Below are positions 21,266 through 33,770 of a stretch of DNA of 34,683 bases, piece by piece. Location of the stretch: assembly GCA_027449865.1 (NCBI GenBank), contig DAIDKV010000079.1, forward strand, positions 1 to 34,683, in the 5' to 3' direction. Source of the DNA: Planctomycetales bacterium. GTDB taxonomy: Bacteria; Planctomycetota; Planctomycetia; Isosphaerales; Isosphaeraceae. Numbering within the stretch: position 1 is the first letter of the stretch; every line of letters begins with the position of its first letter. Under the pieces are notes generated by a model. The model had not been told where the DNA came from. It saw only the letters and a list, made by a program, of their open reading frames with translations, and made no database searches. The position numbers and the translations under genes were made by a program.

Positions 21266-21545
21266 AGACCCGGGGATGGCATCGATCGAGGATCTGGAAT
21301 CCAGAGTCCAGACCTGGCTAAAGGGGTCGGATACCTTTCTTCGGACCCAGTCCACATGGGCCTCTTCAGCGAGAATGCCGCGATGCCATTGCCGAGTCGC
21401 ATCCCGGACCTGATCGAGTCGCCTGGGCATTTCCCCCTTCCTCCGTCCGAGATTCCGTCCAAAACCATCTGATCCCTTGCGACGAACTGGGAAATTGCGG
21501 ATAATCCTCGGAAGTCCACGCGATTATACGGAAAATCAGACGTAC

Positions 21546-21583
21546 ATCAACACGGCCGTTCACCGGCCGAATTCTTGTTAGGC
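21546..21583. repeat. possible degenerate attC-like site or first recombination end
   Basis: CGGCCG-TTCAC-CGGCCG forms a small stem, flanked by CAAC on the left and GTTAGGC (21577-21583, exact GTTRRRY consensus) on the right. It is shorter than the other sites and lacks the CAGCGG arms, so it may be a degenerate attC, an attI-like end, or chance. It marks the left boundary of the cassette series. Confidence 0.35.
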
Positions 21584-21601
21584 TGCGGAGGTGAAACCCG
21601 G

Positions 21602-22144
21602 ATGGCTGGGTTCCGGCTTGATCCGAACAACCGCCACGCTGTCCATCCCGCCGACGTGCTGCGGGTCGATCGGCAGTTGCTGTTGAACGGGCCGATCGCG
21701 CTTTACGACGATCGCGACCGGCTGCGACAGCATATCGAGGCGCTGGAGTCTTACGGCTACTGCTGCCCTGCATTCGAATGTTCCGCGTGGGATACAGTGG
21801 CGGCGATGCATGGGGCTTTGGCCGATGGGCTGAGCTTCCCCGATTACTACGGCCACAACCTGGACGCCCTGAACGATTGCATGGGCGACCTCGACATCCC
21901 CGAGGTGGGAGGTACGGCGCTCGTGCTTTGGCGGTTCGACGGGTTCGCTCGACGATTTCCCGAGGTGGCCTGGCAGGTCCTGGATGTGATCGCCGGGACC
22001 TCGTGGTTCCACCTTCAGTACGGCCGTCGCCTGCTCGGTCTCGTACAGTCCGACGACCGCGAGTTGCGGTTTGCTCCGGTCGGCGCGCGGCCCGTGATTC
22101 GGATCGCGTGGGAGTGTCACAAGCGGCGTGATAACTCGGCCTAA
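21602..22144 (+). CDS. cassette-borne barstar-family inhibitor
   Basis: This 180-residue protein contains the barstar signature at residues 79-100: SFPDYYGHNLDALNDCMGDL, matching the helix and loop with which barstar blocks barnase-type ribonucleases. An N-terminal extension of about 30 residues precedes it. A perfect Shine-Dalgarno GGAGGTGA (21587-21594) stands 7 bases before the start and 3 bases after GTTAGGC, as expected in a compact cassette. The stop codon TAA (22142-22144) is part of the left end of attC site 1. No ribonuclease toxin is encoded nearby, so it would act as an orphan immunity protein or antitoxin. Confidence 0.8.
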   Translation: MAGFRLDPNNRHAVHPADVLRVDRQLLLNGPIALYDDRDRLRQHIEALESYGYCCPAFECSAWDTVAAMHGALADGLSFPDYYGHNLDALNDCMGDLDIPEVGGTALVLWRFDGFARRFPEVAWQVLDVIAGTSWFHLQYGRRLLGLVQSDDRELRFAPVGARPVIRIAWECHKRRDNSA

Positions 22145-22196
22145 CATTCGGTTGCAGCGGACCCGCTGCGCGGGCCGCTGAACCTCGGCGTTAGCC
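22139..22196 (+). repeat. attC-like site 1
   Basis: The left end GCCTAAC matches RYYYAAC, and the right end is GTTAGCC. The core stem pairs CAGCGG with CCGCTG and CCCG with CGGG, leaving one unpaired A (the expected extrahelical base) and loop CTGCG. It is 58 bp long. Its core is identical to site 3. Confidence 0.75.
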
Positions 22197-22411
22197 TGGG
22201 CAATCCGGTGTCGATCCGGTGCAAGGGTCATCCGGCGCGAGGGCGATCGCCTCGGGTGTCGCGTCTGGTGGCGTTCGCTTTGAGACGCGCGGCCTCGGCT
22301 CTTGCGATCCGCTGTCCCGCGCGGCATGGTTGGCAGGTGGCAGGTAGCGCGCCCGGTGGCGTTCGCTGAGAACAGGCGGTTGCGTGGCGGATCGTCTTCC
22401 TCTATTTTCAA
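22197..22411. other. non-coding cassette insert, copy A
   Basis: This 215-base insert between sites 1 and 2 has no plus-strand gene with a credible start and ribosome-binding site. It is about 85-90% identical, gap-free by eye, to copy B at 23080. A minus-strand frame stays open in both copies (shared peptide SERHQTRHPRRSP), but it runs through the attC site and lacks a good start. It may supply a promoter, an RNA, or nothing. Confidence 0.6.
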
Positions 22412-22471
22412 GGCTAACGAAGCATTCCAGCGGACCGGCCTACAACCGGCCGCTGAATTTAGGCGTTAGCC
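22412..22471 (+). repeat. attC-like site 2
   Basis: The left end is GGCTAAC, with one mismatch to RYYYAAC, and the right end is GTTAGCC. The stem pairs CAGCGG-A-CCGG with CCGG-CCGCTG, with one bulged A and loop CCTACAA. It is 60 bp and nearly identical to site 4. Confidence 0.75.
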
Positions 22472-22497
22472 TGCGAATGGCATAGGCAAATCGATGC

Positions 22498-23016
22498 ATG
22501 AGGCGACGTCAATTCTTTACTCGTGTGTTCTACGGCCTCATCGCCCTTGTGTTTGCATGGCTGGGCATCCGTCGGCGTAAGGAGAGTTCTGTGACGCCAG
22601 AGAGCCCGTTCGATCGCGTCGTCATCGTATGTTACAATGATCACGCCGATTATAGCCCCGGCATTTATCTCCACGGGGCCGACGGCGGCGGCCCGGCGTG
22701 CCTAAGTTTCGCCCGGGAAGCGGCGCACTGCATGCGGGTCGGCGAGCCAGCGGACTCCGCCGCGGGCCTCTGCGGCTACCTATTCACTCAGCTCGGGCCG
22801 GAGGTCACGAGCGGCGGGGGCCTTTCGCTCTGGGATGCGCCCCGACCTCGCGCCGATGGGTCAGTTGACTGGCAAGCCTATTGTTCCTGGAATGTGGACC
22901 TTGTACTCGTCAACGTCGATCGGCTGACCGCGGAGTGCTTCGTCAGCCCGGCAGACGCGAAGGCCCCGAATAAGACGTTTGCTGGGCGGCTCACGGGGCT
23001 GAAGTTCGGCGGTTAG
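22498..23016 (+). CDS. cassette gene of unknown function, membrane-anchored
   Basis: This 172-residue protein begins with a basic segment and one hydrophobic helix (FFTRVFYGLIALVFAWLGI, residues 6-24) followed by RRRK, so the body may be anchored and its topology is unclear. The soluble part has VVIVCYNDHADYSPGIYLHG and REAAHCMRVGEPADSAAGLCGYL, which recall a family of uncharacterised proteins with a YNDHADYSP-x-YLHW-like motif; the match is from memory. The start at 22498 is 26 bases after site 2. The ribosome-binding site is weak. The stop is 5 bases before site 3. No function is assigned. Confidence 0.65.
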   Translation: MRRRQFFTRVFYGLIALVFAWLGIRRRKESSVTPESPFDRVVIVCYNDHADYSPGIYLHGADGGGPACLSFAREAAHCMRVGEPADSAAGLCGYLFTQLGPEVTSGGGLSLWDAPRPRADGSVDWQAYCSWNVDLVLVNVDRLTAECFVSPADAKAPNKTFAGRLTGLKFGG

Positions 23017-23021
23017 GCCAA

Positions 23022-23079
23022 GTCTAACGAGGCGATGCAGCGGACCCGCTGCGCGGGCCGCTGATCTCGATCGTTAGCC
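23022..23079 (+). repeat. attC-like site 3
   Basis: The left end GTCTAAC is an exact RYYYAAC match, and the right end is GTTAGCC. The stem core is identical to site 1, including the bulged A and loop CTGCG. It is 58 bp. A second GTTAGGC stands just left of it at 23012-23018. Confidence 0.75.
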
Positions 23080-23294
23080 TGGGTTGTCCGGTGTCGATCC
23101 GGTGCAAGGGTCATCCGGCGCGGTGGCGATCGCCTCGGGTGTCGCGTTTGGTGGCGTTCGCTTTGGGTCGCGCGGCCTTCGCTGTTGCGATCCGCTCTCC
23201 CACGCGGCATGGTCGATCAGCGGTGGGTGGCGCGTCTGGTGTCGTTCGCTGGGGACGGGCGGTTGCGTGGCGGATCGCCTTCCTCTATTTTAGA
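23080..23294. other. non-coding cassette insert, copy B
   Basis: This insert is 215 bases, the same length as copy A and highly similar to it. With its two flanking sites it makes a 333-base unit, as does copy A. Small GTG-started plus-strand frames exist (69 codons), but the equivalent frames are not well kept in copy A. Confidence 0.6.
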
Positions 23295-23354
23295 GGCTAA
23301 CGAAGCATTCCAGCGGACCGGCTTACAGCCAGCCGCTGAATTTAGGCGTTAGCC
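23295..23354 (+). repeat. attC-like site 4
   Basis: The left end is GGCTAAC and the right end GTTAGCC. The stem pairs CAGCGG with CCGCTG. The inner stem differs from site 2 at two positions in the loop-proximal part (CTTACAGCCA in place of CCTACAACCG-like sequence). It is 60 bp. Confidence 0.75.
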
Positions 23355-23377
23355 AGCGGTCTTCGTCGGAGGCTACC

Positions 23378-23812
23378 GTGATCTCCTGCCGTCGGAGTTG
23401 GTGGAGGTGGATGACATCCCGGCCTCGTTACGATGGCTCGCTCTTGGCCACGATCGTTTGGTGGGAACTCCGGCGCCTCAGCTACAACCTCTTCCTCGTC
23501 GCAATCGGCATCCCCGGCCTGCTCCTGTTCTTCCGCGCGATCAGCGCTTCGGATTCGCTCGCACCGGGTGAGGATGCCGTTGAGCCAATCGCGTTGGCCG
23601 CCGCCCCAATCGCGGCCAACATAGCCTATACGGCCGGGTGGCTCGTCGAAGGAGTACTGCTCGGCCAAAGGCCGGGGCCACCGATCGGGCCGTGGCTGAT
23701 GAAAGCCGGTCTGCTGTTCTCGATCACGGTCGTCTTTTTTCCGGCTGTCTTGTGGTGCATGATCGATCTCGCTGGCGTCGTGAGGCACCTCGTTGGTTCC
23801 GGGACCGGCTAA
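23378..23812 (+). CDS. cassette-borne small membrane protein
   Basis: This 144-residue protein has three or so hydrophobic segments: NLFLVAIGIPGLLLFFRAI, PIAANIAYTAGWLVEGVLLG and AGLLFSITVVFFPAVLWCMI. The GTG start at 23378 has GGAGG at 5 bases. An ATG at 23411 also follows GGAGG, at only 3 bases, and would begin at MTSRPRYDGSLLATIVWWEL, which looks more like the usual N-terminus of such proteins; either may be used. The stop TAA (23810-23812) lies inside attC-like site 5. No function is recognised. Confidence 0.65.
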   Translation: MISCRRSWWRWMTSRPRYDGSLLATIVWWELRRLSYNLFLVAIGIPGLLLFFRAISASDSLAPGEDAVEPIALAAAPIAANIAYTAGWLVEGVLLGQRPGPPIGPWLMKAGLLFSITVVFFPAVLWCMIDLAGVVRHLVGSGTG

Positions 23813-23866
23813 CGAGGCGATCCAGCGGATCGGCCTACGGCCGCCCGCTGATCTTCGGCGTTAGAC
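23807..23866 (+). repeat. attC-like site 5
   Basis: The left end is GGCTAAC, and the right end GTTAGAC is an exact GTTRRRY match. The stem pairs CAGCGG with CCGCTG after an offset (GGATCGGCC / GGCCGCCCGCTG), again with unpaired bases on one side. It is 60 bp. Confidence 0.75.
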
Positions 23867-23918
23867 GGCGGGGGCGCGAGTGGCACACAATCATCAAGCG
23901 TGGTGCCGACTCCGACAG

Positions 23919-24227
23919 ATGGGACGTCTGCGTTTCATCCTCTGCTACGGGGTCTTGGGATGGGGCCTACCCTTTGGCCTCCTCTTCCCGGCAGTCTTCG
24001 CCGGGCTCATTCGCCTCGTCGACGGCGAGGGCCCATCATACTCCGAGATCATGCCCTGGATGCTCCCCGTGGGCCTGTTCTCCGGTGTCGGATTCGGTGC
24101 ATGGACCTGGGTCTTGGGCGAGCAGGGGCATCGGCGTTGGCTGGAGCAGGCCGAGGCCCAAGAGGGGGCCGTCTTCTATGAAGCCGCTGAAGTCAAGCCC
24201 CCGCTGACCGAAAAGCCCTCCGAGTGA
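23919..24227 (+). CDS. cassette-borne two-helix membrane protein
   Basis: This 102-residue protein starts MGRLRFILCYGVLGWGLPFG and has two hydrophobic segments (ILCYGVLGWGLPFGLLFPAV and MLPVGLFSGVGFGAWTWVLG) with a charged C-terminal tail (WLEQAEAQEG...). A GTG at 23880 could extend it by 13 residues without adding recognisable sequence. It is the last cassette before the IS110 element. No attC-like site follows its stop. The function is unknown. Confidence 0.6.
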   Translation: MGRLRFILCYGVLGWGLPFGLLFPAVFAGLIRLVDGEGPSYSEIMPWMLPVGLFSGVGFGAWTWVLGEQGHRRWLEQAEAQEGAVFYEAAEVKPPLTEKPSE

Positions 24228-24256
24228 CCTCGGGACGAACAGAGTACGCTTCGAGT

Positions 24257-24306
24257 TCGGTCCTGTCCCGGTTCGCCTCGTCAGAGGCGAACCGGGACAG
24301 GACCGA
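24257..24306. repeat. perfect 23-bp-arm inverted repeat with GTCA loop
   Basis: Arms 24257-24279 and 24284-24306 are perfectly complementary (inner part GGTTCGCCTC / GAGGCGAACC) around loop GTCA. It lies 30 bases after the last cassette gene, so it could terminate that gene or mark an end of the IS110 element. Confidence 0.75.
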
Positions 24307-24658
24307 TCCCGTTCCACTGGCACACCGACTCTCGAGTCGTTCGGTTCACTCCTCCTCGGCCTCCAGGCGATCTCCACGGCGACGCGGCGGGCGGCTGGCT
24401 CCGATGGCGGGCGACGACTTCGGCTCATCGCCTCGACCTTCTCTCCGTGTCCCGGGTCGGCTCGACCCTGGTGCACCTGTTACTGCGTTCGTCTCGCGAC
24501 GACTCCCAGCCGACGAGGAGGGCGATCCCATCTAACGAACGGTCATGTCTCCATGACCCGGCGGCTACCCCGGTCGCCCTCCCCGCGCGGTTCGCTCGTG
24601 ACCCTTCGCCTCCCGGCCCCTGTTCGATGACTCCAGGCAACAACAACGACTCCCTCTC

Positions 24659-24704
24659 GGTCCGGCCGTCAGGCCGGTCTGGGTCCGGCCGTCAGGCCGG
24701 TCTG
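24659..24704. repeat. tandem 23-bp repeat, each unit a GTCA-loop hairpin
   Basis: Two identical 23-base units (24659-24681 and 24682-24704) each contain CCGGCC-GTCA-GGCCGG. The second unit includes the transposase stop codon. The loop sequence equals that of the large hairpin at 24257. It could be part of a structured RNA or a terminator. Confidence 0.75.
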
Positions 24705-25879
24705 TAGGCCGCCGGTAGGCGGCCGTTGAGCTTCTTCTCCCACGGCACCTTCGTCGCACCCTCCGGCACCTCGCCGTGCTCCACGTACTTCCACAACGCC
24801 ACCAACAGCTTCCGCGCCAGCGCCACGATCCCCACCTTCCTTGCCCGGGCATTCCCCTCACCGAACCGCCGCTGATACCACAGACTCAAGGCACTGTTCG
24901 GCTGATGCCTCAACCACATCCAGGCCAGCTCCACCATCGTCCAACGCACCCGCCGGTTCCCCGCCTTGCTGATCCCACGCTCACGGTGCGAGTCCCCGCT
25001 CTGGTACGGCGTCGGGTCCAGCCCCACCAGGCTCGCCAGCTCGCGGCGATTCTTGATCGCCCGCCAGCCGAAGACCTCGCGCACCAGCGTCCACGCCGTC
25101 ACCGGACCGACCCCCTTGAGGTCCAGCAGCAGTCGTACCAGCTCGACGTGTGCCACACCGTCGTCGCGCACCTCGCGACGCTGGCGGTTGCACAGGTCGC
25201 CGAGTTGGCCGTCGACCAACCGCCACCGCTGGTACTCCCGCGCGATCCGTTCCCGCAATTCGGTCGGGACCGGCGACCCATCCCACTGCCGCAGGCCATC
25301 GACCCGCTCGAGGAGCCGGGCATCGACGATCACGTCCAGGCCGATCGCGGCGAGCAGTCCCTTGATGCGGTTGGAGTGCTCGGTCCGCTCGCGGACGAGT
25401 TGGTCCCGGTCGCGGTGGAGTTGGCGGAGGTCCTCCTCCGCGGGCGCCGGCGCGTTGACGACCGACCAGACGTCGCGCTCGCCATTGTGGTAACGCATGA
25501 GCAAGCTCAAGAGCTTGGCGACGTCGATGGCATCGCTCTTGGCGCGGCGGGCGCGGCGGTTGACCTCGATGGAGGCGGAGTCGACGACCGCGTTGTCGAT
25601 CCCGCGGGAGACGAGGAAGCGATGGAGCCAGAAGCCGTCGCGGCCGGCCTCGTAGCAGGACCGGACCGGCGCGTCGTCGGGGAGGCCGAAGCGGCGGCGG
25701 GCGCGGTCGACCTCGCGGCCCAGCGAGCCGAGGTCACGGGCGGGGATGGTGACGCGGCGCGGGGGCATCGCCGGGGCGGTGCTGAAGGCGAGCCCCCAGG
25801 AGGTCCATCCCAGCTCGAAGGCCAGGTAGAGCGGCGCCGGGTAGGACGTGGTACGATCGTGGTCGTGGGTCGCTGACAT
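24692..25879 (-). CDS. IS110-family transposase
   Basis: This 395-residue protein has the N-terminal DEDD RuvC-like domain: LAFELGW (E22 where most members have Asp), SCYEAGRDG (E77) and KSDAIDVAKL (D116, D119). The C-terminal Transposase_20 domain has LLDLKGVGPVTAWTLVREV, ASLVGLDPTPYQSGDSHRERG (catalytic-serine region, S294) and ISKAGNRRVRW. It appears full length. IS110 enzymes act with a bridge RNA to recombine target and donor DNA without target duplication in many cases. The gene runs against the cassette array, which ends beside it. Confidence 0.92.
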   Translation of the reverse strand: MSATHDHDRTTSYPAPLYLAFELGWTSWGLAFSTAPAMPPRRVTIPARDLGSLGREVDRARRRFGLPDDAPVRSCYEAGRDGFWLHRFLVSRGIDNAVVDSASIEVNRRARRAKSDAIDVAKLLSLLMRYHNGERDVWSVVNAPAPAEEDLRQLHRDRDQLVRERTEHSNRIKGLLAAIGLDVIVDARLLERVDGLRQWDGSPVPTELRERIAREYQRWRLVDGQLGDLCNRQRREVRDDGVAHVELVRLLLDLKGVGPVTAWTLVREVFGWRAIKNRRELASLVGLDPTPYQSGDSHRERGISKAGNRRVRWTMVELAWMWLRHQPNSALSLWYQRRFGEGNARARKVGIVALARKLLVALWKYVEHGEVPEGATKVPWEKKLNGRLPAAYRPA

Positions 25880-25977: not shown

Positions 25978-27681
25978 CTATCCGGTCGCCGCGACCGGTC
26001 GCTTTGACGGGGCCAGCAGATAGCCGAAGTGCTGTAGAAGCAGGGCCTTGCGCGCCGCGATGAAGTCGTCGTAGCGGCCGAGCTTCCAGAGCTCCTGGTC
26101 CTGCGGAATCAAATGCATCTCGAGATAGGCCCGGTCTTTGTCGGCGAACCAGACCTCCGGCAAGGTGTCGCTCTTGCCCCCGGAGCCGTTCTCCCGTTGA
26201 GTCAAAAGCATGCAGTTGGCCAGCTGGTTGCGCTCGGCATCTTTGTATTTCATGAGGTCGCGCCGGCCCGTGCGCGGATTCTCGACCCGGATTCTCTTGA
26301 GACTGCTTTGGGGGAAGATATGGTCAACCTGAGGCATGTTATTTTCGTATGCAGGCACATAATTAAAATCCCGATACCAGAGATTAAACAGCAGGTGGAT
26401 CGTATCCGAGCCATAGCCCATCTGCCAGAAACGGTCCTCGGTCAGCTCCAGGCTGCGCCCCTTTGACCGGATGACGTCGAGGAGTTCGCTCCCGTCGAAC
26501 CGCTGGAGCTCCTTGAGCTTGTTCACGCAATCGTCGATGATCTGGTCGGGGGTACCGCTGAAGGCGCCGGTCAGGAGCGACCGCAGCAGGAATCCGTCGA
26601 CGTCCCGTGCCTGCTGCCATGCTGACGGAAAGTGGTATCGAAGGTAGACCAGCGGGATCAACACCAGGTACGACGGCATCGCCTTATCGCACCGGATGAA
26701 CGTCTTACCCCGGACGAAATCGACCACGTCCCGCAACGCCTTCGAAATCGGCTCCCACTTCTCCTCGATCTCTTCACGGACCCCCGGCTTGCGGAACTTA
26801 TCGATGTCGTACCTGGCTCCCTGATCGAGGAGCGTCAGGCACGTCTTCAGGACGAAGTCCCGGGGAAATGAGAACCCATGCCGATTGAGTTGGTCGAGGA
26901 GCTCCTCCATCTCCTCGTCGGCATAGTCCCAGCTTGACGTGAGCAGCGAAAACAACAGATCGGACTTGCCAAGGCGGGTCCCGCCCGAATTCGCCCGGAT
27001 GAAGATCTCGACGACGTCGTCCTCCGTATACAGATCCTGGTTTTCGATGCTGTCCAGCTCCTGGTAGGAGATGCCGTCGTCGGTATGAAAGGTCTTGAAG
27101 GCCAGGGCGACATGCTCCGAAATCTTGTCCTGCTCGGCATCGCTCAGCTCGCGTCCGGCCGCTCGAATGATCTGCTGCGCCAGGCCCAGCGACGTCTTGG
27201 CGCTGAAGATCACGTCCTTGAACTTGACCCACGGAAAGCTGGCCGTGGCGGTGTCGAGGAAAGCGAATTTATACTTGATGTCGTCGGGCGCGGCGACCTC
27301 GCCGCTGAGGATGTCGAGATGGAGTTCCCTGCCCTCATAGCTTCCGCAAAGCCCGATGTAGAGGCTTTGCAGGCGCTGCTGCCCGTCCAGGACCATGCAT
27401 TTCTTCTTGTCGTCCTCCGGAACATAGAAATCGCTCAGCCGCGTGAGCTGTCGGGGATGGAAGTTGTCGATGAACTTCCTTCGCCGAATCCGGCTGCGCG
27501 TCTTCCAGATGAGCAGCGTACTGATGGGGTATTCCCGCATGATGGAATCAAAGAGCCTGCATATCTGGTCCTCGTTCCAGACGAACGGGCGTTGGATGTT
27601 GGGCAGCCAGAAGCCGCCGTCTTCGTCCGGGTTATTCAGGAACGTGACGATCTTGCGGAGCGAGTGCTTCGGCGTCTTCAT
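25978..27681 (-). CDS. GmrSD-type single-chain restriction protein (DUF262-DUF1524)
   Basis: This 567-residue protein has an N-terminal DUF262 domain: IQRPFVWNEDQI (residues 29-40) and VLDGQQRLQSLYIGL, whose DGQQR (99-103) is the family's ParB/Srx-like nucleotide-binding motif. EIFIRANSGGTRLGKSDLL follows. The C-terminal DUF1524 domain is an HNH-type nuclease: QVDHIFPQSSLKR (H near 454) and ERNQLANCMLLTQREN. Fused GmrS-GmrD proteins are type IV restriction enzymes against modified phage DNA. The start at 27681 (MKTPKHSLRK) was preferred over a TTG 45 bases upstream. It lies 143 bases after the methylase-helicase gene on the same strand. The immunity role is inferred from the family. Confidence 0.88.
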   Translation of the reverse strand: MKTPKHSLRKIVTFLNNPDEDGGFWLPNIQRPFVWNEDQICRLFDSIMREYPISTLLIWKTRSRIRRRKFIDNFHPRQLTRLSDFYVPEDDKKKCMVLDGQQRLQSLYIGLCGSYEGRELHLDILSGEVAAPDDIKYKFAFLDTATASFPWVKFKDVIFSAKTSLGLAQQIIRAAGRELSDAEQDKISEHVALAFKTFHTDDGISYQELDSIENQDLYTEDDVVEIFIRANSGGTRLGKSDLLFSLLTSSWDYADEEMEELLDQLNRHGFSFPRDFVLKTCLTLLDQGARYDIDKFRKPGVREEIEEKWEPISKALRDVVDFVRGKTFIRCDKAMPSYLVLIPLVYLRYHFPSAWQQARDVDGFLLRSLLTGAFSGTPDQIIDDCVNKLKELQRFDGSELLDVIRSKGRSLELTEDRFWQMGYGSDTIHLLFNLWYRDFNYVPAYENNMPQVDHIFPQSSLKRIRVENPRTGRRDLMKYKDAERNQLANCMLLTQRENGSGGKSDTLPEVWFADKDRAYLEMHLIPQDQELWKLGRYDDFIAARKALLLQHFGYLLAPSKRPVAATG

Positions 27682-27824
27682 GGCGGACCCAGACTCTCGG
27701 CGTTTCAACGGGTCATGCCCGGGCAAGCCCCGGGAATGCTTATGTAAGTTAGCTCATCTGCGGCCCGCCGTCAAAGCATGAGTGATTCCGGCCGACACGT
27801 CTCCCAAGCAGGCGGATTGGACGG

Positions 27825-30800
27825 CTAGAACAGGCTCATCTGCCGCTGGCTGCGCACGACGCGCTCCCGGTGGCCGGGCCTGGGCCTCGCGGGATGGTGC
27901 TGGCCCGCCTGGGCGTCCGGGAAGGACAGTACAAGCGACTCCGCATCCTCGGGCTCGTCCACCGTGGTGGGTGCCGGCACCGGCCGACCTGACGAGGACG
28001 CGGGCGGGGCTTCCACTGCCTCGCCTGCGCCGGCTTCCACTTGGGGCCCGGCGGCGGGCCCCTCCCCGATCTGGCGGCGGATGCGGGCCGTCACCGGCTC
28101 CTCGGCCGTGGCAGTATTTCGCGTCTGCCTCCGTTCCGGGGCCGGCTCAATGGTGTGGGCGGATTTGAGGGCTTTGATGCGGTCCGCGATCTCCGCGGCC
28201 GGCGGGATCTCCGGCGCGCCGGATTCGGGTGGAACGCCGGAGAGGGCGGCCTTGAGCTGATCGCGCGAGTGTGTCAGCTCTTCCTGGTATGCCTGATGGG
28301 CAAAAGGCCGGCCGAGGCGGGCCTGATAGTCGCGGAGTTGCCCTTCGGCGATCGCCAACTCTTTCCGGCTGGCGGCGATCTGGCCCTCGTAGCCGTCCGC
28401 CAGGCGGCCCAGGGCGTTAAGGACAGCGCGCGGGCCTGCGTCCCGGGCAATCATCGCGTGGCGCGTCGTCGCCCCTTCCAGATACGCATCCGGTGCGCCG
28501 AGGGCGTTCACCACGATACCGAAAGTCAAGCCGCGGTAGGTGCCCATGGGATAGCGGCAGGTCTCGTGGATGTGGTCCGGGATCGCGTTCAATCGCTTGG
28601 CCAGGGCCTTCTGCGCATCTTCGTCGGCGTAAGCATGCTCGCCGATGGTGAGCGGGTCTCGAGCATGCGCGGCCAGGGTCGCCCGGTCGGCAGTCAGATC
28701 ACCGACTCGCTTGGTCAGCCGGGCGATCGTCTCCGGCAGCTCGCGGATGGAGCGCCGGGCCAGGTACTGCTCGTCGGCGTGGTTCTTCCTGAGCACGGCC
28801 AGCCGCTGCAATTCGGCATCGGCTTCGGCGAGCGTGAGCACCGCCGGGTTGCCCGAGGCGATCGCCTTGACCTCCGCGTAGGAAAGCTCCTGGCCACCGA
28901 TGTCCTCGGCCCGGCGGACGGCGGACTGCCCGGTCATCACCTGCGCGATGAAGCGGGCCTTTGTCTCCAGAGCCTGCCACATATAGGCGTCGAACGAACC
29001 CTCGGTCACGTAACGATAGATCGCGACCTCCTTGTTCTCATTACCCTGCCGGAGGATGCGGCCCTCGCGCTGCTCGACCTCGGCCGGCTTCCAGGGGGCG
29101 TCGAGGTGGTGCAGGGCCGCCAGCCGCTTCTGGACGTTGGTGCCGGTGCCCATCTTCTGCGTGCTGCCGATCAGGACGCGGACGGACCCCTGCCGCACTT
29201 TCTCGAACAGCGCCTGTTTCTTCGCGTCGGAATCGGCGTCCCCAATGGCGGCGATCTGGCCGCGGGGGATGCCGAAGGCTACCAGCTTCTCGGCGATCTC
29301 CTCGTAAGGCGAGTAGCCCCAGGGGGTGGGATTGACGCCCATGTCGCAGAAAACCATCTGGGTGCCGCGCGTCGCCGCCGTCCGCTCCCAGATGCGGCCG
29401 ACGTTCTCGACCAGGGCGTTGATCTTGGAGCCAGCGTGATCCTCGGCAGCCCCGGAGAGCATCCGTGCGTCCAGGGCAAGTTTGCGGCCGTCGGTGGTGA
29501 TGGCCAGGGCGTTGTCGTCGCGGGGATCGACCTTCTGCGTCCGCAGCCGCTCGTAGCGGGCGACCAGTTCCTGCTGGAGGGCGGCCTGCTCCTCCGACAT
29601 CGGGCAGGCCACCACGATCGGCTTGCCGGTCTCCAGCTTCGGCCGGGGCAGGTCGAGCATCTCGGCAGTCTGGATGTCGGCGAACGCCCGGAACATCTGT
29701 TGGAGTTCCGGCAGGTTGGTGAAGCGGGCGAACCGGCTGCGGGGCCTCAGCGTCTTGCCGTCGGGGGAAATCTCCATCGTGTCCACCACCTCGCCGAAGG
29801 TGGCTGCCCACCCGTCGAAATGCTCGATGCCGCGGCTCCGCAGCCCCTCCGGGTCGAGGAATCGCTGCATCGTGTAGAGCTCGACCATGGTATTCGAGAT
29901 CGGCGTGCCCGTGGCGAACGTCACGCCGTGGCCGGGGTGCTTCTCCCCCAGGTATCGGGCCTTCATGTAGAGGTCGAACGCCCGCTCGGACCCGCCGGTC
30001 TGGATGCCGGCGACGCGCTCCATCTTGGTCGGCGTCTCCAGGTTCTTGAAGTAATGCGCCTCGTCGATGAAGACGTGGTCCACACCAAGCTCGTCGAAGA
30101 CCAGGCCGTCGTCCTTCTTGTCCTCGGCCAGCAAGTCCTTCAGCCGCTCCTCGCGGCGGGCTTTCTGCTTCTCGATCGTCTTGATAATATTGCGGCTGCC
30201 GCGGCCGGTGTCCGCCCGGTGGCTGTCGCAGAGCAGCTGCTCGTATTCCTTGATCTGCTCGCGCAGGAACGCCGCCTGGTAGTCGCGGGACAGCCCGATC
30301 CGCTCGAAGCTGCTGTGGGTGACGATGATGCCGTCCCACTCCTGGCTCGCGATCTTGGCGGTGAGGAACTTCCGGCGCTCGCGCGTGAGGTCCTCCTTGG
30401 TCGCCACCAGCAGTTTCGCATTGGGATAGAGCTGCTGGAACTCCCGGGCGAACTGCTCGAGCATGTGGTTGGGCACCACGTAAAGGGGCTTGCGCAGCAG
30501 GCCGGCCTGCTTCATCTTCATGCCGGTCGCGCACATCGTGAATGTCTTGCCGCCGCCCACGACATGCCCAAGTAGCGTGTTGCCGGAGCTCATGCCCCGC
30601 CAGACGGCGTTTTTCTGGTGGGGGTCCAGGATGATCGTCCGGCTCATGCCCGGGAAGTCGAGGTGCGAGCCGTCGAAGAGGCGCGGTCGCAGATTGTTGT
30701 AGGTGTCGTTATAGAGGCGCACCAGCCGCTCCGTGCGGTCGGGATCGGCGAATACCCATGCCCGGAAGCGCTCCTTGATGAGCTTCTGCTTCTCGCGGGC

Positions 30801-32990
30801 GGCCAGGGTCGCCTCCTGGTTCACGACCCGTTCCTCGCGATCACCGGCCTGGACGGTGTCGTAGATGACCGGCGTTTTCAGGTTCATGGCCTGCTCCAGG
30901 AGCCAGACACCGTTGGCGCGGGGAGTTCCGACCTCGGCGGTGGCCGCGACGGACCGCTCGGCGGTGGCGTCGGCGTCCACGCTCCAGAGGGCGTCCTTCT
31001 TCAGGTGCCCGATGCGTATCGCGGAATCGGAGACGCCGAAGAGCCGGCCGGCGAACGCCTGGATATCGGCCTGGGGTATCCAGGGCGCACCGAGATTGGC
31101 GTCGATGTCGCCTGGCAGGACGTCCTCGGGCTGGACGGCGCGGAGCGCCTCGGCGTTGCGGACGAGGGCTGGCCCCGCCGCTTCCGCCGCCGACAGCTTC
31201 GTTCGCACATTGCCCGAGAGGTACTGGTCGGCGGTCTGCCAGGTCCGCGACTGTGGGTCCAAATAGATGAGGTCGCCGAGCTCAGCGGCGACCTGGGCAT
31301 CGGGCTTGCCGTAGAGCGTGGCGATATATGGCAGGTCCACCGCCCCGCGATGATTGAGCGAGACGAGCAACCCCTCCTCGGCGGAACGCACGGCGGTGAC
31401 GGGCGGGGTGCGGCCGACCACATCCTTGACCATGATGGCCGCCTTTGCGGCCTTACCGGTCACCTCATCGTAGTCCTCCAGCGCCATGACCAGCATGGCG
31501 TCCGGGTCCTCGCGGAATTTCACAAGGTTGGGCATGCGGCGGGTAACGCCGCCGTCGGCGCCCTCGGAAAAGGTCGTTTTGTTGATCGGGCCGTACGATG
31601 CAGCGAACAGGTCATAGGCGCGGTTGAGCGCTTTCCTCGCCTCGTTCCTGTGCTCCTCGGGCCAGTCCTCGTTTTGGCTTTGCAGGACGCGGCGGGCATG
31701 GTCGCGCAGGCCGATGAGCGCCGCGAGCCTGCGGGCGGTCATCGTGCCGTCGGATTTCAGGAGCTGGCCGCCGTAGTTCACGGCGGCTGCCTCGCCCGCG
31801 ATTATCTGGCGGATGACCTTGTCGTCGCCGACGAAGAAGCTGCCTTCGGTGATATGACGCTCGGGCGGCGGGGGTGTGAAGGCGGCGGGCGCCGCAGGCG
31901 TGCTTACCGCAGAGGGCGGAGCCGCGATCCCCTCCGGCAGGCGCCGGACCGCCTCGCGGAGCTGGACGGCAAGGTCTCCGCTCGAACTCAGGCTGTAGCC
32001 GGCATCGTACAGGCGGTCCTTGCGGCTCAGCGTGCCGAGCATCATCTCCGGATGGTTCAGGAAATAGCGGTTGATCGGGATGGCCGCGCCGTCGATGGTC
32101 ACGGCTTCGGTCTCCAGCCAGGCCGGGTCGGCGTGCCAGGCGGGCGCGCCGGCCTCTCGCTTGCGTAGGAAGACGATGTCGGTGACCACGCTCGTCCCTT
32201 CCCGCTTGAAGGCGTCCGACGGAAGGCGGATCGCCCCGAGGAAATCGGCGCGGTCCGCCAGGTACTCCCGGATGGCCGCGTTCTGCTTGTCCAGCGTGAA
32301 ATGGCTGGTGACCAGGGCCAGCATGCCGCCGGGTTTCAGCGCATCCACGGACTTGGCGAAGAAGAAGTCGTGCAGCGCCAGCCTCTGGCCCTTGTATTCG
32401 AGCCGGATATCCGCGAAGGGCACATTCCCGATCACCGCGTCGATGCCGCCCTCGGGCAGTCTCGTGTCACGGAAATTCTCGATGCGAATGTCCGCCTGCG
32501 GGTGGAGCGCGCGGGCGATGCGGCCGGAGAGGCCGTCAAGCTCGACGCCGATGAAGCGCAGCCCCGACGGCCCGCCGCTCATGAAATTCCCGATCCCGCA
32601 CCCGGGCTCCAGCACGGTGGCGCCCGCCGGCACGCCCAGACGGGCGAGGGCCTCGTGCATCGCACCGATCACGACCGGCGAGGTATAGAAGGCGTTGAAG
32701 GTCGTCCGCCGGGCTGACTCGTATTCCTCGGTGGTGAGGAGGGATCTGAGTTCCTGGCCAAGGATTTGCCAGCCGTCCTTGAAGTGTCCTGAGACCGGGT
32801 CGGGAAAGATCGAGAGCGCCACCGGCCCGAAGCCGCCGAAGCGGGCCAAGGCCTGCCGGTCCTCGGGTGTGACACCTTTGCCCTCCTCCTCGATGCGCCT
32901 CAGGGTGCGGATGGCGGTGATGATGTCGCGGGCCTTGGCTTTTTCGCCTGCGGCCTGCGGGATGGGCGCGGCTGCGCCGTTGCTCTCCAT
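27825..32990 (-). CDS. N12-class adenine methylase fused to SNF2-like helicase
   Basis: This 1,721-residue protein is typical of large plasmid/ICE-encoded proteins. The methylase part has motif I VLEPGCGIGNF (near 127-136) and motif IV AVIGNVPFADIRL (near 186-197), where NVPF replaces the usual NPPF/Y. Superfamily 2 helicase motifs follow: Walker A HVVGGGKTF (near 810), VFIDEAHYFKN (near 975), ATGTPISNTMVELYTM (near 1025) and the late QREGRILRQGNENKEVAIYRY (near 1308). The last 300 residues are helical and end in a basic tail. The start at 32990 (MESNGAAAPI) fits the usual size. The same frame stays open upstream to 33749, but that stretch overlaps another gene. The role is unproven: DNA modification, anti-restriction or mobile-element maintenance are candidates. 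Confidence 0.85.
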   Translation of the reverse strand: MESNGAAAPIPQAAGEKAKARDIITAIRTLRRIEEEGKGVTPEDRQALARFGGFGPVALSIFPDPVSGHFKDGWQILGQELRSLLTTEEYESARRTTFNAFYTSPVVIGAMHEALARLGVPAGATVLEPGCGIGNFMSGGPSGLRFIGVELDGLSGRIARALHPQADIRIENFRDTRLPEGGIDAVIGNVPFADIRLEYKGQRLALHDFFFAKSVDALKPGGMLALVTSHFTLDKQNAAIREYLADRADFLGAIRLPSDAFKREGTSVVTDIVFLRKREAGAPAWHADPAWLETEAVTIDGAAIPINRYFLNHPEMMLGTLSRKDRLYDAGYSLSSSGDLAVQLREAVRRLPEGIAAPPSAVSTPAAPAAFTPPPPERHITEGSFFVGDDKVIRQIIAGEAAAVNYGGQLLKSDGTMTARRLAALIGLRDHARRVLQSQNEDWPEEHRNEARKALNRAYDLFAASYGPINKTTFSEGADGGVTRRMPNLVKFREDPDAMLVMALEDYDEVTGKAAKAAIMVKDVVGRTPPVTAVRSAEEGLLVSLNHRGAVDLPYIATLYGKPDAQVAAELGDLIYLDPQSRTWQTADQYLSGNVRTKLSAAEAAGPALVRNAEALRAVQPEDVLPGDIDANLGAPWIPQADIQAFAGRLFGVSDSAIRIGHLKKDALWSVDADATAERSVAATAEVGTPRANGVWLLEQAMNLKTPVIYDTVQAGDREERVVNQEATLAAREKQKLIKERFRAWVFADPDRTERLVRLYNDTYNNLRPRLFDGSHLDFPGMSRTIILDPHQKNAVWRGMSSGNTLLGHVVGGGKTFTMCATGMKMKQAGLLRKPLYVVPNHMLEQFAREFQQLYPNAKLLVATKEDLTRERRKFLTAKIASQEWDGIIVTHSSFERIGLSRDYQAAFLREQIKEYEQLLCDSHRADTGRGSRNIIKTIEKQKARREERLKDLLAEDKKDDGLVFDELGVDHVFIDEAHYFKNLETPTKMERVAGIQTGGSERAFDLYMKARYLGEKHPGHGVTFATGTPISNTMVELYTMQRFLDPEGLRSRGIEHFDGWAATFGEVVDTMEISPDGKTLRPRSRFARFTNLPELQQMFRAFADIQTAEMLDLPRPKLETGKPIVVACPMSEEQAALQQELVARYERLRTQKVDPRDDNALAITTDGRKLALDARMLSGAAEDHAGSKINALVENVGRIWERTAATRGTQMVFCDMGVNPTPWGYSPYEEIAEKLVAFGIPRGQIAAIGDADSDAKKQALFEKVRQGSVRVLIGSTQKMGTGTNVQKRLAALHHLDAPWKPAEVEQREGRILRQGNENKEVAIYRYVTEGSFDAYMWQALETKARFIAQVMTGQSAVRRAEDIGGQELSYAEVKAIASGNPAVLTLAEADAELQRLAVLRKNHADEQYLARRSIRELPETIARLTKRVGDLTADRATLAAHARDPLTIGEHAYADEDAQKALAKRLNAIPDHIHETCRYPMGTYRGLTFGIVVNALGAPDAYLEGATTRHAMIARDAGPRAVLNALGRLADGYEGQIAASRKELAIAEGQLRDYQARLGRPFAHQAYQEELTHSRDQLKAALSGVPPESGAPEIPPAAEIADRIKALKSAHTIEPAPERRQTRNTATAEEPVTARIRRQIGEGPAAGPQVEAGAGEAVEAPPASSSGRPVPAPTTVDEPEDAESLVLSFPDAQAGQHHPARPRPGHRERVVRSQRQMSLF

Positions 32991-33313
32991 AGCCTGATGT
33001 CCTCTTCCTTGAGTTACCGGCCCCGGCGGGGCCTGACGGCACTCCAAGGAAGCCGCGTCGTCCGGGAGCGCCAGCGCCCGGTCAAGCGGGTAATGGGCAG
33101 GGTCCCCGTTCCCGCTTGACCGGCCCGGCGGCGGCTTCACCGTGCCGTCGTGCAAGGCCCCTGGCCGGGGCGCAGAAAGCGGAAGGGCATCGGCGGGAGA
33201 TACGGAAGGCGCGGCCTGCCCGTCGGCCTGGGGCGCAGAGACGGCCCCTTCCCGCTGCCACGCCGGGACGATGAACGACAGAAGCGGCTGGCGTGCCCTG
33301 GCGCGGGCGGCGC
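32991..33313 (-). other. 323-base gap with open frame in phase with the methylase-helicase
   Basis: No separate gene with a start and ribosome-binding site is seen. The methylase frame is open throughout and encodes a protein-like string (QPLLSFIVPAWQREG) then Pro/Ala/Gly-rich sequence. No ATG in this frame occurs between 32990 and 33749. It could be untranslated, or an N-terminal extension reached by an alternative start or frameshift. Confidence 0.4.
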
Positions 33314-33646
33314 TTACGCGCTCGGCGTAGCTGGATGGCGCAGGAGGAAGGCCATCGCCTCCTCCAGGCCAGCCCCCTCCCCATCGTCCTCGCTCGGCGT
33401 CGACGCGGAGCGCAAAGCTTCCCGCAGTTGCTCGGTGGCTGGCTCCAACGCCATGCTCGAAAGCCGGGCCGGGTCGTAGCCCGGATTCGCCTGCCGGTAC
33501 TCCTGCTCCCACGCCCGGTGGGCCGTCCGCAACGCGATCGCGTAATCCTCCACCGCCGAAAGGAGGCTCCGGCTCGCGCGCAGCCGGTCGTGCAGCGCCG
33601 GATACTCGCTTTGGATCATCTCCAGGACCATCGTCTTGTAGTGCAT
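33314..33646 (-). CDS. small conserved protein linked to plasmid/ICE methylase-helicase genes
   Basis: This 110-residue helical protein begins MHYKTMVLEMIQSEYPALHD and ends GLEEAMAFLLRHPATPSA. Small proteins of this pattern, with a start like H-Y-x-T-M-x-L-E and a conserved E-A-M-A-F-x-x-R-H end, are known next to large methylase-helicases on proteobacterial plasmids; I recognise the pattern from memory. AAGGGGA stands about 9 bases before the start. The function is unknown. The much longer methylase-phase frame opposite it is taken to be chance. Confidence 0.72.
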   Translation of the reverse strand: MHYKTMVLEMIQSEYPALHDRLRASRSLLSAVEDYAIALRTAHRAWEQEYRQANPGYDPARLSSMALEPATEQLREALRSASTPSEDDGEGAGLEEAMAFLLRHPATPSA

Positions 33647-33770
33647 CGTGGCGTTCCCCTTGGTAACCGTTGCCTGAAGGCCCCGCCCCCGCGTCGGCAT
33701 CGAACGCCAGTCCCGGCAGAAGCGGCGGCGGTGGCCTCCTCGACGCCATAGCACAATGCGCGTGGGCGCG

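Follow-up and report, generated by a model that had tools for sequence, protein, structure and literature searches.

An attC cassette array with an attI-like leader and no intact integrase gene in an Isosphaeraceae genome assembly

Where integrase-less cassette arrays come from, and whether they are still part of a working system, are open questions in integron biology. To our knowledge, surveys usually call such arrays by their attC sites alone, and attI is sought only for known types. An array of this kind lies in the window analysed here, a stretch of 34,683 nt that forms contig C79 of its genome assembly (G000; 8.48 Mb in 278 contigs, 99.4% complete). The host, taken in the initial annotation for a probable planctomycete, was indeed placed in the Isosphaeraceae (Planctomycetota), the family of Aquisphaera giovannonii (G027) and Paludisphaera borealis (G032), both of which were recognised from plasmids that matched at 100% identity across 8 kb. 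Four genus-mates (G001, G002, G003 and G004) were compared. The locus is in all likelihood a genuine CALIN-type cassette array that has kept its own attI/Pc leader and lost its intI, and that is one of several attI-led loci in the genome.

attC sites and cassettes

Five attC sites of 58–60 bp running in the same direction had been proposed. All five were recovered on the top strand within 22141–23864 (22141–22194, 22414–22469, 23024–23077, 23297–23352 and 23809–23864) and measure 54–56 nt from CTAAC to GTTAG, or 58–60 nt including the outer bases. Each carries the CTAAC/GTTAG ends, which follow the R''/R' pattern YYAAC...GTTRR, and, as had been described, a CAGCGG/CCGCTG stem with a single bulged base, here an A of the top strand. 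With a covariance model derived from 15 sites, all outside the window, they scored strongly, at 61.5, 66.3, 72.5, 70.9 and 74.3 bits, respectively (E from 1e-14 to 4e-18); the opposite strand gave 25–33 bits at the same five places and the best other match in the window reached 19 bits. As single-stranded DNA the five sites folded better than shuffles (z −3.2 to −5.4). The L''/L' stem, extrahelical base, unpaired spacers and short terminal stem of attC were found by the covariance model, the DNA folds and covariation; among 46 attC sites of the genus, 19 stem cells had changed on both sides compared with 4.3 in shuffles, and the covariation score was 0.088 against 0.037. Rfam gave no match at its gathering thresholds. 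By sequence and structure the five sites are attC sites, and their recombination by IntI as a single bottom strand is predicted.

More than ten contigs of the genome carry similar sites, as would also be expected of a dispersed intergenic repeat family with cassette-like spacing by chance. This explanation has a negligible probability. The boxes, the bulge, the strand bias and the exact cassette boundaries speak against it; cassette-like inserts likewise lie between the sites found elsewhere in the genome, and in relatives intI lies beside the same sites. It is refuted by their distribution: at E 1e-3 the model found no match in five few-contig genomes of the family without intI, and 27–31 sites in two family relatives with intI.

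The inserts had been described as single-gene cassettes, which holds for three of the five. Cassette 1 (21602–22144, + strand) encodes a barstar-like protein of 180 residues, as the initial annotation had it (PF01337 at 52 bits, where the cut-off is 23.4; barstar chains in the PDB matched at E 8e-4). Cassette 3 (22498–23016, +) encodes a 172-residue protein with a hydrophobic N-terminus and no Pfam or NCBIfam match, and cassette 5 (23378–23812, +), taken from the list of open reading frames, a small hydrophobic protein of 144 residues with no family above cut-off. The stop codons of cassettes 1 and 5 fall within the R'' box of the attC. Cassettes 2 (22195–22413, +) and 4 (23078–23296, +) are ORF-less copies of one cassette. 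Cassette 2 is 86% identical to 23078–23297 and 83% identical to a third, partial copy that follows another attC (C151:4153-4282). The differences between cassettes 2 and 4 are spread evenly over the codon positions (9/11/11), and no frame is stop-free in both copies. Their own trailing attC sites differ at 3 of 56 positions, compared with 12 of 54 for the sites in front; a trailing attC held in common and a front attC that is not are the signature of cassette units.

A last cassette-like gene of 115 residues (23880–24227, +) has no family match above cut-off, and the covariance model found no attC to its right in the window; it forms the truncated end of the array. The right border is an IS110-family transposase (24692–25879, − strand; PF02371 and PF01548). 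Just past the array, 24252–24311 holds a 28 bp nearly perfect inverted repeat with a 4 nt loop. Positions 24173–24248, within the last gene and the DNA downstream of it, match the end of contig C256 exactly over 76 nt. Two arrays may have a repeated right end in common, or the match may be an overlap in the assembly graph there. To the right of the IS110 element (25978–33749) lie genes for a GmrSD/HEC-05-like protein and a 1974-residue methyltransferase-helicase protein, which suggests a defence island. Other arrays of the genome encode a Tdi1-type immunity protein, an HNH protein, an addiction-module antitoxin and a PemK/MazF-like toxin. On the array fragment of C276, toxin–antitoxin-like gene pairs occupy cassette positions (L013 246-762 and 3798-4366).

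The attI-like leader and the integrase relic

The initial annotation began the feature at 21577 with no integrase in view. The actual start lies about 230 bp further left and comprises an integrase relic and an attI-like leader; both, as well as the multiple copies of the leader, had been missed. The leader (21430–21581, +) was delimited by its copies and by the end of their homology. It ends in TTCTTGTTAG and would be the insertion point for the first cassette. Five copies are present in the genome (C79, C256, C157, C151 and C95), each followed by a different sequence, and one or two in each of the four genus-mates; a search of 292 further genomes in the class found none. In an alignment of nine loci the copies are alike as far as TTCTTGTTAG (TTCATGTTAG in one) and diverge beyond it, as expected of an attI at which different cassettes have been inserted at G^TTAG. 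The leader is conserved in front of the first cassette, has a GTTRRRY-type core and lies beside intI in intact relatives. From these features an attI function, with IntI binding and attI × attC recombination, is inferred. Consensus scans gave a putative Pc, TTGCGA-N17-GATAAT, reading into the cassettes (21477–21505, +) and kept in the leader alignment, and a putative Pint, TTGATG-N16-TATAAT, reading towards the integrase relic (21523–21550, −); as consensus matches, both are candidate promoters.

The relic (21345–21430, −) comprises approximately the first 28 codons of intI (85 bp), divergent from the array. In a tblastn search with a genus-mate IntI it was matched at 51% identity over 49 residues (E 1e-7), the region upstream of it included. 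A longer stub adjoins the leader on C256. Identity between the window and C256 is 96% for the leader and 79% for the relic (Fisher P = 5e-5). That the leader is better kept than intI fits continued selection on the leader; gene conversion could contribute to, or explain, the high identity among its copies. Different sequences follow leaders that are 96–97% identical (window, C256 and C157), which points to cassette exchange at the leaders; at the window leader this exchange probably took place without a local intI.

No match in the assembly exceeded the TIGR02249 cut-off, and no intact intI is present in it, so that the annotation was right about an intact gene and overlooked the 5' stub. The window thus has five attC sites and a 28-codon stub, with no functional intI adjacent to the attI-like leader; it is a CALIN and not a complete integron. 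Among the genus-mates, intI was found in three of four (G001, G003 and G004). G002, which is 99% complete and has many attC sites, gave no intI at the threshold used. In G004 (C294) an intact IntI scoring 469 bits, over the cut-off, is encoded divergently beside the same leader type on a contig that also carries an attC. It aligns with Vibrio cholerae IntI4 (2a3v) end to end, through the IntI-specific region (317 bits); an intact counterpart is not encoded in the genome of the window.

The IntI-like recombinases encoded on C245 and C276 were not accepted as integron integrases: they score below the cut-off, most of the IntI-specific region is skipped in their alignments and they adjoin transposases read by eye, from the sequence, as IS91-like. 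The end of an IS91-like element, beside a XerA-like recombinase, is a palindrome with CTAAC/GTTAG ends that mimics attC (L013 on C276, 1178 and 4394; G000:C262:9161-9216).

The left flank of the window is 88% identical to its G001 ortholog as far as 21334, a point some 10 bp short of the relic. The leader and array therefore appear to have arrived at the locus with an intI fragment only, a reading that is suggestive, as the G001 contig ends about 140 bp past the breakpoint and leaves an empty site unproven.

Leader copies in other genera

Four more genera of the Isosphaeraceae, and a genome from a different family (G056), have extra leader copies without an intact intI. They match the leader beside each genome's own intI and are lineage-specific in sequence. 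In A. giovannonii the intI array lies at 4.625 Mb. Another array, with about 20 attC sites, lies 0.92 Mb away at 5.549 Mb and is led by an 88% identical leader copy of 69 bp. G029 has two further leader-led arrays and a fourth, weak leader copy; G021 has four further copies, two of them with attC sites and one with an intI fragment. G016, a genome of one contig, has an intI with two stops at 0.177 Mb; at 2.974 Mb an intI fragment and about five attC sites accompany a second leader. G037 and G049 have a single copy each. Since the leaders differ between genera, integrase-less attI-led arrays probably arose repeatedly.

A second match to the leader in G047 proved to be a palindromic repeat and not an attI; an array of at least seven attC-like sites, with a palindromic repeat that also lies beside the G047 intI, was seen at G047:C1:5168000-5184000 (L188). 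The first cassette of the intI array of A. giovannonii ends in an attI-like core (CCTAATCACTGTTAGGCGG) and not in an attC, and a 209 bp part of this cassette recurs later in the array (L059 6700-7000 and 7713-7921).

Origin and standing of the array

The favoured account starts from an ancestor with a complete integron (intI, the same leader type and attC sites) of the kind kept by a genus-mate. Cassettes would be circles ending in a single-strand attC hairpin, IntI would recombine them into the attI core (G^TTAG, 21577–21581) and the leader Pc would transcribe the nearest cassettes. At least five attI-led loci of the genome, the window array among them, would have arisen from this ancestor by copying of the leader end and loss of intI, with past cassette exchange by IntI acting in trans. 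No integrase is left in the assembly, so the array is now probably frozen; its cassettes would be expressed and not mobilised unless an IntI enters. The extra integrase-less leaders in the same family suggest that several arrays may once have shared a single integrase. A wider proposal, that Isosphaeraceae have distributed integrons in which several chromosomal arrays, each led by a copy of the lineage's attI/Pc leader and lacking an integrase, are served from one integrase locus, is put forward tentatively and is less probable than not.

Ordinary decay is a rival with somewhat less than an even chance. On this explanation every leader locus began as a complete integron with an intI acting in cis, the gene was deleted independently at each and nothing acted in trans. 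Relics of different length in G000 (window and C256), G002 (C381), G016 and G021 (C92) agree with it, as do the broken intI beside the array of G016 and the frequency of integrase pseudogenes (PMC2426708). Against it stand C151, C157 and C95, and copies in A. giovannonii and G029, where no intI sequence was detectable; and with a flank conserved almost to the 28-codon relic, a full intI may never have stood at the window locus. The integrase could instead sit in an assembly gap, being unassembled rather than lost, and the arrays would then be a normal active set with one intI. Arrays do break contigs (C95, C151, C256 and C276 end in or near them) and three of the four genus-mates have intI; but a single-copy gene of 1 kb is usually assembled in a genome that is 99.4% complete, and G002 likewise lacks a detected intI despite its attC sites, so this explanation is considered unlikely.

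The CALIN-type array favoured here shares with the IntegronFinder category the presence of at least two attC sites, compact cassettes and the lack of intI nearby; it differs in keeping an attI/Pc leader, present five times in the genome, and the 5' stub of intI. CALINs in general are frequent, and two studies describe them as mobilisable in trans (PMC9668308, PMC12444791). The sedentary chromosomal integron of Xanthomonas, as presented in the accessible part of its description (PMC12444791), is alike in being an ancestral platform that has lost intI and in having extra CALINs away from the main locus; that part does not describe these with a copy of the attI leader, whereas the arrays of the present genome have one. 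The initial view that planctomycete cassettes are little described was partly right, although planctomycete integrons and a Planctomycetes attC model have been published (PMC2426708, PMC8352920, PMC9668308). For Isosphaeraceae, the titles and abstracts found held nothing about integrons. A literature search that covered few subscription papers gave no account of attI leaders multiplied in the absence of intI. As far as searched, repeated attI-led arrays without an integrase are undescribed, CALINs and planctomycete integrons being already known.

A. giovannonii, which is culturable, combines an intI array and a distant leader-led array in one species. Should leaders multiply without intI, many CALINs may be outposts of a single integrase, both expressed and loadable; and if distributed integrons exist in the Isosphaeraceae, cassettes would be loadable first in line at several loci at once.
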